NCBI RefSeq assembly: GCF_011392115.1
Contig: NZ_JAAJBT010000001.1
Location: 372,001-436,000 of the forward strand
DNA length: 64,000 bases
Source: Flavobacterium difficile
GTDB taxonomy: Bacteria; Bacteroidota; Bacteroidia; Flavobacteriales; Flavobacteriaceae
Reading direction: 5' to 3'
Below the pieces are notes generated by a model. That model had not been told where the DNA came from, did not search any database, and saw nothing but the letters and a program-made list of their open reading frames with translations. Of this stretch, positions 7,158 through 11,022 are shown piece by piece. The position numbers were made by a program, and so were the translations under genes. Positions within the stretch are counted from its first letter, which is position 1, and every line of letters starts with the position of its first letter.

Positions 7158-7238
7158 ATTTTAGATAATGTCTTAAATCGAAGCTAATGACAAAAAATCC
7201 GACTTCATGTTTCAGAATTAGTGATGGTAAAACTTGCC
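7130..7238 (+). repeat. Imperfect direct repeat, copy 1 (terminator plus IS1 start)
   Basis: This hairpin, the spacer with AAATCGAAGCTAATG, and the first 50 bases of the transposase gene (through TTTCAGAATTAGTGAT) have a diverged counterpart at 8762-8866. There the bases read AAATCGAGGTTAATG and TTTCAGGATAAGTGAT. The two copies flank the IS1 and zeta genes. Confidence 0.5.
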
Positions 7239-7885
7239 CTAATTGTAAAATGATAAAAATTATAAAAAATGGCACTACTAAAAACAAAAAGCAACAATAC
7301 TATTGTAAAAATTGCAATAAGAGATTCATAGAAAATTATACTTATAATGCTTATCTCTCGGACATAAACAATAAAATTATCTTGTTTACCAAAGAGGAAT
7401 TAGGGATTAGAAGCACTGCCAGAATCTTGAAAATTTCAACAACAACTTTATTAAAAAGAATTATAATAATTGCTAAAAGCATAAGTCAGCCAATTATTAG
7501 CAAAGGAAAAACTTATGAAGTGGATGAAATGTGTACTTACATAAATCATAAACGAAACTTTATTTGGTTAGTTTATGCTTTGGATAAAGATTCAAAGAAT
7601 GTAGTTAGCTTTAATGTTGGTAAGAGAACAAATAAAACATTAAGTAAGGTTGTAGATGCCTTGCATTTGTCGGATGCTAAAAGGATTTTTACAGATGGTT
7701 TGAAAAATTATAAATATTTAATTGATAAGAAATTTCATTCTGTAAAGCGTTTTGGTACAAATTATATAGAGAGGAAGAATTTGACATTAAGAACGCATCT
7801 TAGAAGATTAAATCGTAGAACAATATGCTTCAGTAAAAGTATGGTAGTTTTAGTTTCAATTTTGAAGATTTATTTTTGGATTTGA
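7187..7885 (+). CDS. IS1-family transposase
   Basis: 232 aa, the normal length of the single-frame flavobacterial IS1 transposases. The N-terminal zinc ribbon has CPNCKMIKIIKNG and YYCKNCNKRF (residues about 17-45). A helix-turn-helix follows (GIRSTARILKISTTTLLKR), then the DDE catalytic segments YEVDEM, IFTDGLKNY and NYIERKNL, and the C-terminal THLRRLNRRTICFS block. The reading frame is intact. I could not find clear terminal inverted repeats or a target duplication, so the ends of the element are not defined. It may be inactive. Confidence 0.88.
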   Translation: MTKNPTSCFRISDGKTCPNCKMIKIIKNGTTKNKKQQYYCKNCNKRFIENYTYNAYLSDINNKIILFTKEELGIRSTARILKISTTTLLKRIIIIAKSISQPIISKGKTYEVDEMCTYINHKRNFIWLVYALDKDSKNVVSFNVGKRTNKTLSKVVDALHLSDAKRIFTDGLKNYKYLIDKKFHSVKRFGTNYIERKNLTLRTHLRRLNRRTICFSKSMVVLVSILKIYFWI

Positions 7886-7957
7886 AGTTTTTAAAATGTT
7901 CATAGTAAGATAAAATTATATCCTAATTGAAGTTAAAAAGTATTCGTTAATTTTGTA

Positions 7958-7965
7958 TATATTTG
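7958..7965 (+). promoter_or_regulatory. -7 box at the zeta toxin gene
   Basis: TATATTTG fits the Bacteroidota -7 box. It ends six bases before the ATG at 7971, so transcription should begin at or very near the start codon. No clear TTTG lies at -33. Confidence 0.5.
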
Positions 7966-7970
7966 CATTG

Positions 7971-8555
7971 ATGGACAAGAATCTTTATATAATTGCTGGA
8001 TGTAATGGTGCAGGGAAGACAACTGCTTCATTTACAATATTACCAGAGATATTAAATTGTAAAGAATTCGTAAACGCAGATGAAATTGCGAAAGGATTAT
8101 CTCCTTTTCAACCTGAGAAAGTAGCATTTGAAGCTGGGAGAATTATGCTCAACAGAATTAAAGAACTTTTAGATGGAAATGAAAATTTTGCTTTTGAAAC
8201 CACTTTAGCTACTAAAAGCTATAAATTTAAAGTTGCTGAAGCTCAAAGAAAAGGTTATAATGTAACACTTCTGTTTTTTTGGTTGCAAAATGTCGATTTA
8301 GCAATTGAAAGAGTTAAAACAAGAGTTTTAGAAGGTGGTCATAATATAGAAACTGATGTAATTAAAAGAATATATAGTAACGGAATTAGAAATTTATTCG
8401 ATATTTATATTTCAATAGTTGATGAAGTTTTAATATTTGACAATTCTGGGGGTAAGCCAATTTTAATTGCCGACAAGACTTTAAAATCAGAATTAAATCT
8501 AGTTGATGAAGATAAGTTTAAAAAATTAAAAAAGTATCACAATGAAAGAACATAA
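7971..8555 (+). CDS. Zeta-type P-loop kinase toxin
   Basis: 194 aa from Met 7971. Residues 5-18 read LYIIAGCNGAGKTT, a Walker A motif at the very N-terminus as in zeta toxins and their relatives. These kinases phosphorylate UDP-N-acetylglucosamine or other small molecules. Next come the zeta-like substrate segment EFVNADEIAKGL, a central FAFETTLATKSY, and LLFFWLQNVDLAIERVKTRV, a lid with Arg residues. An upstream in-frame TTG at 7953 was rejected because it lies before the probable transcription start. The substrate is not known from sequence. A 48-aa gene overlaps its end. Confidence 0.8.
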   Translation: MDKNLYIIAGCNGAGKTTASFTILPEILNCKEFVNADEIAKGLSPFQPEKVAFEAGRIMLNRIKELLDGNENFAFETTLATKSYKFKVAEAQRKGYNVTLLFFWLQNVDLAIERVKTRVLEGGHNIETDVIKRIYSNGIRNLFDIYISIVDEVLIFDNSGGKPILIADKTLKSELNLVDEDKFKKLKKYHNERT

Positions 8556-8688
8556 AATAACTCCACATCAAATGAAAATTCTTAAAGGAATGGATAAGGT
8601 TTATGATAAGCTAATCGAATTCAAAAAAAGAATGAATAGTGATTTGGTAATTCTTGAAGATAATAAAATTATTAGGATTAAACCATAA
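8542..8688 (+). CDS. 48-aa partner of the zeta-type toxin, candidate antitoxin
   Basis: Small frame with ATG at 8542, overlapping the toxin's end by 14 bp and ending in TAA at 8688. The product begins MKEHKITPHQMKILKGMDK, is basic, and is predicted mostly helical, with a short strand-like ending (VILEDNKIIRIKP). The overlap implies translational coupling, which is usual in toxin-antitoxin pairs. In classical epsilon-zeta systems the antitoxin comes first, so the order is reversed here. The function is inferred from position only. Confidence 0.6.
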   Translation: MKEHKITPHQMKILKGMDKVYDKLIEFKKRMNSDLVILEDNKIIRIKP

Positions 8689-9862: not shown

Positions 9863-9870
9863 TACCTTTG
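9863..9870 (+). promoter_or_regulatory. -7 box of the era promoter
   Basis: TACCTTTG, matching TAnnTTTG, overlapping the end of the previous terminator. It would serve the short aborted frame at 9888 and era behind it. Confidence 0.5.
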
Positions 9871-9895
9871 CAAAAAAAAATAAATATATGTCGCG

Positions 9896-10019
9896 TAAAG
9901 CAGGTTTTGTTAATATAAATGATTTGATATTAAGAGGAGAATGTCCGGTGGACATTTGGTAAGACATATATAATTTAAAAAAATGATCATGACACATAAA
10001 GCAGGTTTTGTTAATATAA
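9896..10019 (+). repeat. Duplicated era 5' end around a palindromic insertion
   Basis: A 23-bp direct repeat (TAAAGCAGGTTTTGTTAATA plus TAA) occurs at 9896-9918 and 9997-10019, shifted by 101 bp. The first copy belongs to a 24-codon frame from ATG 9888 that starts like Era (KAGFVNI) and then stops at TAA. Between the copies lies a perfect palindrome AATGTCC-GGT-GGACATT (9940-9956). The simplest reading is insertion of a small palindromic element with duplication of the target, leaving era to start from the second copy. Confidence 0.65.
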
Positions 10020-10873
10020 TTGGAAACCCAAACGTGGGTAAGTCTACCTTAATGAATGCTATGGTAGGCGAGAAGTTGTCTATTATTACCAGTAAGGCGC
10101 AAACCACACGTCACAGAATTTTCGGAATTGTTAATGATGAAGACTATCAAATCGTCTTTTCAGATACACCTGGAATTATTAAACCAGCCTACGATTTACA
10201 AACCAGTATGATGGATTTTGTAAAAAGCGCTTTTAAAGATGCCGATATTTTAATCTATATGGTCGAAATTGGCGAGAAAGAATTAAAAGACGAAGAGTTT
10301 TTCAATAAAATCATTCATGCTAAAATTCCAGTTTTACTTTTGTTGAATAAAATCGACAAATCGAACCAAGAATTATTAGAAGAGCAAGTACAAACCTGGC
10401 AAGCGAAAGTTCCTAATGCCGAAATTTTTCCAATTTCAGCTTTAGAAAACTTCAATGTAAAAGAAGTGTTGAACAGAATTGTAGATTTGTTACCTGATTC
10501 ACCACCTTATTATCCAAAAGATGCTTTAACTGATAAACCAGAACGTTTTTTCGTAAATGAAACAATCCGTGAAAAGATTTTATTAAATTACGATAAAGAA
10601 ATTCCATACGCGGTTGAGGTGGAAACAGAAGAGTTTTTGGAAGACGAGAAAATTATAAGAATCCGTTCTGTTATTATGGTGGAACGCGATACGCAAAAAG
10701 GAATTATTATCGGACATAAAGGTGCAGCTTTGAAAAAAGTAGGCATGCAAGCTCGCGCCGATTTAGAAGTGTTTTTCGACAAACAAATACATATCGAAAT
10801 TTTCGTAAAAGTGAATAAAGATTGGAGAAGTAACGCTTTCCAATTAAGAAGATTTGGATATAACCAAAAATAG
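9983..10873 (+). CDS. era: GTPase Era
   Basis: Ribosome-assembly GTPase that binds the 3' end of 16S rRNA and helps mature the 30S subunit. 296 aa with all expected parts: G1 GNPNVGKST at residues 14-22, the switch segment TTRHRIFGIV, G3 DTPG, G4 NKID and a C-terminal KH RNA-binding domain with GHKGAALKKVG. The start is ATG 9983 or ATG 9989; the second gives the usual MTHKAGFVNIIGN. The leader is disturbed by the duplication upstream, which may alter expression. der follows about 300 bp later. Confidence 0.96.
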   Translation: MIMTHKAGFVNIIGNPNVGKSTLMNAMVGEKLSIITSKAQTTRHRIFGIVNDEDYQIVFSDTPGIIKPAYDLQTSMMDFVKSAFKDADILIYMVEIGEKELKDEEFFNKIIHAKIPVLLLLNKIDKSNQELLEEQVQTWQAKVPNAEIFPISALENFNVKEVLNRIVDLLPDSPPYYPKDALTDKPERFFVNETIREKILLNYDKEIPYAVEVETEEFLEDEKIIRIRSVIMVERDTQKGIIIGHKGAALKKVGMQARADLEVFFDKQIHIEIFVKVNKDWRSNAFQLRRFGYNQK

Positions 10874-10944: not shown

Positions 10945-11022
10945 AGCGAGTGTTTAGCCCAGATGGAAGCGGCATCTCCCGATTTTTCATCGGGAATATA
11001 GCGTACAGCTGGAATAGCTTCA
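10945..11022 (+). ncRNA. Flavo-1-like structured intergenic element
   Basis: Contains the blocks TTTAGCCCAGATGGAAGCGG and AGCGTACAGCTGGAATAGCT, which I remember as a frequent intergenic element of flavobacteria resembling the Flavo-1 RNA motif. Between the blocks is a perfect hairpin TCCCGAT / ATCGGGA with a five-base loop (10977-10995). The orientation is taken from the conserved block order. Its function is unknown. The identification is from memory and needs a covariance-model search. Confidence 0.5.

Follow-up and report, generated by a model that had tools for sequence, protein, structure and literature searches.

In the window, the 64,000-nucleotide stretch of Flavobacterium difficile DNA analysed here, the complete gene for the GTPase Era is preceded by a second, truncated copy of its own 5′ end, and a palindrome lies between the two copies. 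How did an essential gene come to be arranged in this way, and does the arrangement affect the gene? The original prediction was that a small mobile palindrome had entered era, duplicated about 23 bp of its target and left a working copy of the gene behind an aborted frame, which may act as a leader peptide.

Layout of the era locus

The predicted duplication of the era 5′ end, shifted by 101 bp, was found at the expected coordinates and is slightly longer than first described (34 nt, 88% identical), with an exact 23-nt core at 9896–9918 (Table 1). The aborted 24-codon, Era-like frame is present as an ORF whose 24-aa product is MSRKAGFVNINDLILRGECPVDIW; the left era-start copy continues in frame into a repeat element, here called E, and the stop lies at 9962. 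The perfect palindrome likewise lies between the copies, as part of E. The essential gene that was hit retained a working copy: era is complete, and its product scored above the cut-offs for GTPase Era (NF000908 and TIGR00436). TACCTTTG, which we take to be a promoter motif of the Bacteroidetes type, is located 5′ of the left copy. Of 27 relatives with an uninterrupted era, 16 have an ACCTTTG motif before the gene start, all 16 being among the 20 of the genus.

In an anchored flank test, the flank that directly abuts E on its 5′ side was sought up to 260 nt downstream, and matches with a score of at least 13 were counted. The window copy scored 30, which 7 of 1500 mismatched pairs also reached in a null that includes pairs from the same kind of target site. 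The spacer at era is unlike the sequence upstream of the left copy, and a putative simple 64-bp duplication is not supported by this comparison.

A Flavo-1 RNA (RF01705, 54.6 bits) was found at 10952–11019, directly 3′ of era. In an RNA fold predicted for the window only, GACAUAUAU of the spacer (9964–9972) would pair with AUAUAUGUC (9884–9892) in the start-codon region of the upstream frame. By eye, an IS1-like transposase frame (7187–7885) and a zeta-toxin-like ATP-binding frame (7953–8688) with a small frame behind it were also recognised in the window.

Table 1 Features of the era locus (window coordinates).
Feature	Position	Strand	Basis or remark
TACCTTTG, presumed promoter motif	9863–9870	+	seen in window sequence
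Left, truncated era-start copy (X)	9888–9921	+	direct-repeat comparison
24-codon upstream frame, Era-like start, reads through E	9888–9962	+	ORF; open in 12/12 distinct genomes with the arrangement
Repeat element E	9922–9961	+	conserved arm 9922–9939, hairpin 9940–9956, TGGTA 9957–9961
Perfect palindrome AATGTCC-GGT-GGACATT	9940–9956		sequence; arms covary between copies
A+T-rich spacer (Y), from E to second copy, 27 nt	9962–9988	+	48–54% mean identity, 12 genomes
Right era-start copy (X′), then GAA	9989–10022	+	direct repeat and flank test
Complete era gene, start 9983 or 9989	9983–10873	+	ORF and profiles

A dispersed hairpin repeat and its flanking duplications

E is a dispersed repeat of 37–40 nt consisting of ATTTGATATTAAGAGGAG, a hairpin with covarying arms and then (A/C)GG(TA). 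The idea of a small, dispersed palindromic element thus stands, with the correction that the mobile unit comprises at least these 37–40 nt and that the palindrome is only a part of it. When at most three mismatches were allowed, 124 of 398 genomes from the genus contained E, the richest of them 63 times, compared with 1 of 398 for a reversed-pattern control. A stricter search (one mismatch, two positions free) of 299 genomes of the family, two of them from the genus, detected E in the genome that holds the window and, among the 297 from outside the genus, in one. The exact pattern of arm and hairpin core occurred in at least 119 stretches in named genomes. Among the 80 matches listed, 67 were titled Flavobacterium, and the remaining ones were seven Flavobacteriaceae bins, one Bacteroidetes bin, one Mariniflexile, three Sphingobacterium-titled bins and one Nitrotoga-titled bin; the matches listed included the same era insertion on a contig of F. 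cheniae. Carriage of E by viruses was rejected, since viral contigs held no match to the exact pattern.

We compared 174 copies with non-redundant flanks, which came from the loci fetched and are not a random sample. Hairpin positions 21/33 are A–T in 67, C–G in 55 and T–A in 51 copies; positions 22/32 are G–C in 119, T–A in 32 and A–T in 23; and positions 23/31 are T–A in 78, G–C in 54 and C–G in 37. The stem pairs change type yet stay paired, that is, they covary; only hairpin-capable copies were kept, which biases the paired share upward and leaves the variety of pair types unbiased. The invariance of the 5′ arm was largely imposed by the search pattern. Rfam gave no match above the gathering score over E in the window, and the matches at six other E loci all fell below the threshold and belonged to unrelated families, a few of them lying over E; E was therefore rejected as a known RNA family. 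Literature searches with the arm sequences or the translated core, and a search of the literature on Flavobacterium and on small repeats, found no description of E in a coverage that excludes subscription papers and preprints.

Longer composites, in which a further hairpin repeat separates the arm of E from its hairpin, were seen at L090, L110 and L167. The window's genome also contains divergent E-like copies with other hairpin sequences (G000:C6:108671, at L043 position 276, and G000:C6:17229, at L049), and the one at L043 has its own flanking duplication with a score of 26.

The flank of E was repeated downstream in 73 of the 174 copies, compared with 62 of 1500 mismatched pairs, and at a score of at least 30 in 31 of 174 copies compared with 7 of 1500 pairs, the null being inflated by repeated target sites; 15 further flank matches near a contig or locus end were left out of the 73. 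By arm type, duplications accompanied 57 of 132, 6 of 26 and 10 of 16 copies. The trinucleotide GNA follows the second copy in 56 of the 73 (GTA 22, GAA 15, GCA 11, GGA 8), with G making up 19% of the background. The target is duplicated as predicted, with a length that is not fixed at about 23 bp and differs by site. In the 73 cases, the second copy ends 30 to 253 nt from E. Sites at era and Flavo-1 cluster at 61–66 nt (two Flavo-1 sites: 79 and 80 nt); nevertheless, a fixed 64-nt duplication was rejected because of this range.

The targets were diverse. At L317, E and a second hairpin lie between near-identical segments (score 144 over 150 nt aligned), with the complete tRNA-Val gene on the right; tRNA-Val is also the target at L084 and L153, and 5S rRNA at L304. 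The 3′ end of an RNase E/G gene was named as the target on L163, and L069, L076, L122 and L177 group with it. Flavo-1 accounts for 12 of the 73 targets by flank sequence, and all four tested were confirmed by Rfam. Targets at gene starts include obg and bshB1, both above curated cut-offs, and, below the cut-off, a partial aroC and an AsnC/Lrp-type regulator. An intact copy lies downstream of E in all targets inspected. Because E also occurs in tRNA, 5S rRNA and Flavo-1 sites, and its frame differs at L309 (by eye), a coding role of E everywhere was rejected. At RNase E/G sites such as L035 and L177, the terminators duplicated next to E retain their flanks and differ inside the hairpin, as if the hairpin had changed in a single step.

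We consider it fairly likely that E is a non-autonomous hairpin element dispersed among Flavobacterium genomes that duplicates the target on its 5′ side on entry, and that its old insertion at era was then inherited and probably exchanged. The family, the duplications, the target rule, the hairpin covariation, and the age and patchiness at era are direct observations; we infer that insertion and duplication are one event. E would enter DNA at N|GNA sites, and the same event would duplicate the target on its 5′ side over a detectable length of about 15 to about 200 bp. The product would be X-E-Y-X′-GNA, in which the left copy is truncated and the right one complete. Where the duplication extends past the near end of a gene, E could thus lie inside essential or RNA genes and leave one intact copy. 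Counting against this explanation, 101 of the 174 copies have no clear duplication, and no GNA follows the second copy in 17 of the 73. Recombination alone could also make the duplications in mosaics of several repeats around E (for example in G016) or in tandem arrays (L035 and L036, with several units, and L153).

History of the arrangement at era and the upstream frame

Eighty E-bearing genomes were tested for the era site, 44 further ones being left out, and 11 of them carry E at the same site; together with L145 (UBA7684), 12 distinct genomes have the arrangement. Relatives with an uninterrupted era, a check proposed with the original prediction, do exist: apart from the window itself (L004) and L006 and L032, which the script did not recognise and which were read as uninterrupted, the arrangement was absent from all 27 recognised loci among 30 (20 of the genus and 7 of other families of the order). 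In a tree of the era protein, the positives are scattered, and well-supported branches force at least five changes. The arrangement is old and patchy across genomes, and is common to several species instead of being new in this strain.

Mean identity among the 12 genomes is 98% in the arm, 89% in the hairpin, 48–54% in the spacer (aligned without gaps) and 51% at era third positions. E and the end of the second copy are 63–64 nt apart in the nine genomes scored by the script. Independent insertions at era were dropped because several spacers can be aligned by eye and are nearly equal in length. We read the locus as one or a few old insertions that were then inherited and exchanged. When G196 was compared with the uninterrupted start of its close relative G009, the left copy had 0 of 21 differences and the right copy 3 of 21; G063 showed the same trend against two relatives. 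This left/right comparison fits recombination in two of the seven genomes compared. In the five others, whose relatives are more distant, the two copies lie about equally far from them, except in L145, where the right copy is closer. The cassette has probably spread in part by homologous recombination between species.

The upstream frame is open in all 12 genomes, with 24 to 41 codons. Between the left and right copies within a genome, 26 of 96 codons differ synonymously and 2 non-synonymously. This codon pattern suggests that the left copy is constrained; it would also result from recent recombination. In 7 of the 12, the end of the frame falls between −8 and +2 nt relative to the era start, compared with 2.95 expected from shuffled spacers (P 0.008, with lineages that are not independent). 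In the window, by contrast, the frame stops further upstream, 26 nt from ATG 9989 or 20 nt from ATG 9983. The leader-peptide idea is at most suggestive: the open frames and the stop positions agree with it, and the position of the window's stop does not. era would be transcribed behind a short frame that opens with a copy of the era start and reads through E, and coupled or reinitiated translation of era is plausible. An extended Shine–Dalgarno sequence in rpsU of Flavobacteriales is described in PMC9976891, and GAGGAG of E may be considered a candidate Shine–Dalgarno sequence.

Alternatively, a role of E and the upstream frame in regulating era could have preserved the arrangement, with mobility being incidental. 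The codon pattern and the stops near the era start agree with this, as do the conservation of the arm over the 12 genomes despite the diverged spacer and the fact that 7 of 11 era-positive genomes have no other E copy by the pattern with at most three mismatches. However, the codon pattern is open to the recombination reading given above, the window's genome has further, more divergent E-like copies, the predicted leader fold is not unusual (z −1.35), and the central hairpin pairs are lost in two of the 12 era copies (AGAGAAC, L224 and L226). We regard maintenance for regulation as possible and somewhat unlikely.

Possible routes of movement and comparison with known systems

We searched for an enzyme that could move E. 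A Y1_Tnp profile search (E-value ≤ 0.001) gave no match in nine E-rich genomes with 63 to 13 copies (G016, G212, G366, G343, G247, G313, G171, G309 and G330), including those with 63 and 40 copies. Over the genomes searched, many of which are drafts, Y1_Tnp was present in 23 of 40 that carry E and in 28 of 40 that lack it, and RVT_1 in 11 of 20 and 11 of 20, respectively; RVT_1 was not found in E-rich G366, G234, G288 and G142. A Y1 transposase as the mover is thus unsupported by presence and absence, and a reverse transcriptase shows no association. The 763 ORFs of at least 70 aa within 2.5 kb of E (loci L068–L186) include 12 groups that occur in at least four loci; none of these groups was transposase-like by eye, and only members of era, obg and RNase E/G were named by profile.

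These counts bear on the proposal that E belongs to the REP-type repeats and is mobilised by a RAYT or an IS200/IS605-type Y1 transposase. Like REPs, E is a short, dispersed, non-autonomous hairpin repeat; the sequence at its foot is conserved, and a second hairpin occasionally lies next to it. Besides the distribution of Y1_Tnp, the flanking target duplications set E apart, as IS200/IS605-type insertion is not known to make a target duplication. According to PMC3733652, REPs have a GTAG or CGTC tag at one hairpin foot. By eye, the feet of E in the 174 copies are GAGGAG and (A/C)GG, with no such tag conserved. The REP-type proposal is largely refuted, barring an enzyme that disappeared once E had expanded or that is hidden in gaps of draft assemblies, and we consider it very unlikely. 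Movement through an RNA copy by target-primed reverse transcription, as in SINE-like retroelements, would agree with one fixed end, variable duplications and a hairpin conserved as structure. It is very improbable, given the equal share of genomes with RVT_1 and its absence from some E-rich ones.

Template switching in replication or repair would need no dedicated enzyme: synthesis would leave the locus, copy E elsewhere and return tens to hundreds of bases upstream. The variable duplication length would fit this route, as would the lack of association with Y1 transposases or reverse transcriptases and of a transposase candidate near E. Some alignments, inspected by eye without statistics, show a few bases in common between the 3′ end of E and the left edge of the duplicated segment. 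On the other hand, the ends of E are constant, and the GNA after the second copy looks like recognition. Such exact ends, together with the GNA rule, speak for an enzyme; template switching is judged unlikely. To our knowledge, duplication lengths ranging this widely are unusual for known transposases. A more speculative proposal, which we hold as doubtful, is that E is moved by an unrecognised mechanism in which the two strands are opened at points separated by tens to about 200 bp, each insertion thereby supplying a repair copy for the gene end that it hits. Essential, tRNA and rRNA genes would then be safe landing sites, and the new translated leader at era and obg a by-product.

Returning to the preferred explanation, a non-autonomous element that duplicates its target, E can be set beside further known repeats. 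Miniature inverted-repeat elements (MITEs) and other small bacterial mobile repeats are small, non-coding and dispersed and have a duplicated target, and E resembles them in all of this. In contrast to MITEs, its ends (ATTTG… and …GGTA) are not inverted copies, its palindrome is internal, and its duplications vary in length (the second copy ends 30 to 253 nt from E) and far exceed the few bases that are usual. Rickettsia palindromic elements, which are described as in-frame insertions in the gene product, are likewise palindromic repeats within genes that still function, whereas with E the gene is restored by duplication. Flavo-1 RNA (RF01705) is described in parts of PMC2864571 and PMC9723704 as a dispersed structured repeat of Flavobacteriaceae; E is also a dispersed structured repeat and differs from it in sequence and structure, Flavo-1 being a frequent target of E.

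Normally, an essential gene does not survive an insertion. A repeat that rebuilds its target could settle in essential genes, create leaders and alter the regulation of GTPases such as Era and Obg. The long, variable duplications and the precise ends point to an enzyme or repair route that would best be sought in the E-rich genomes. Taken together, E behaves like a small non-autonomous mobile repeat, yet it fails the REP/RAYT and MITE tests that were run.
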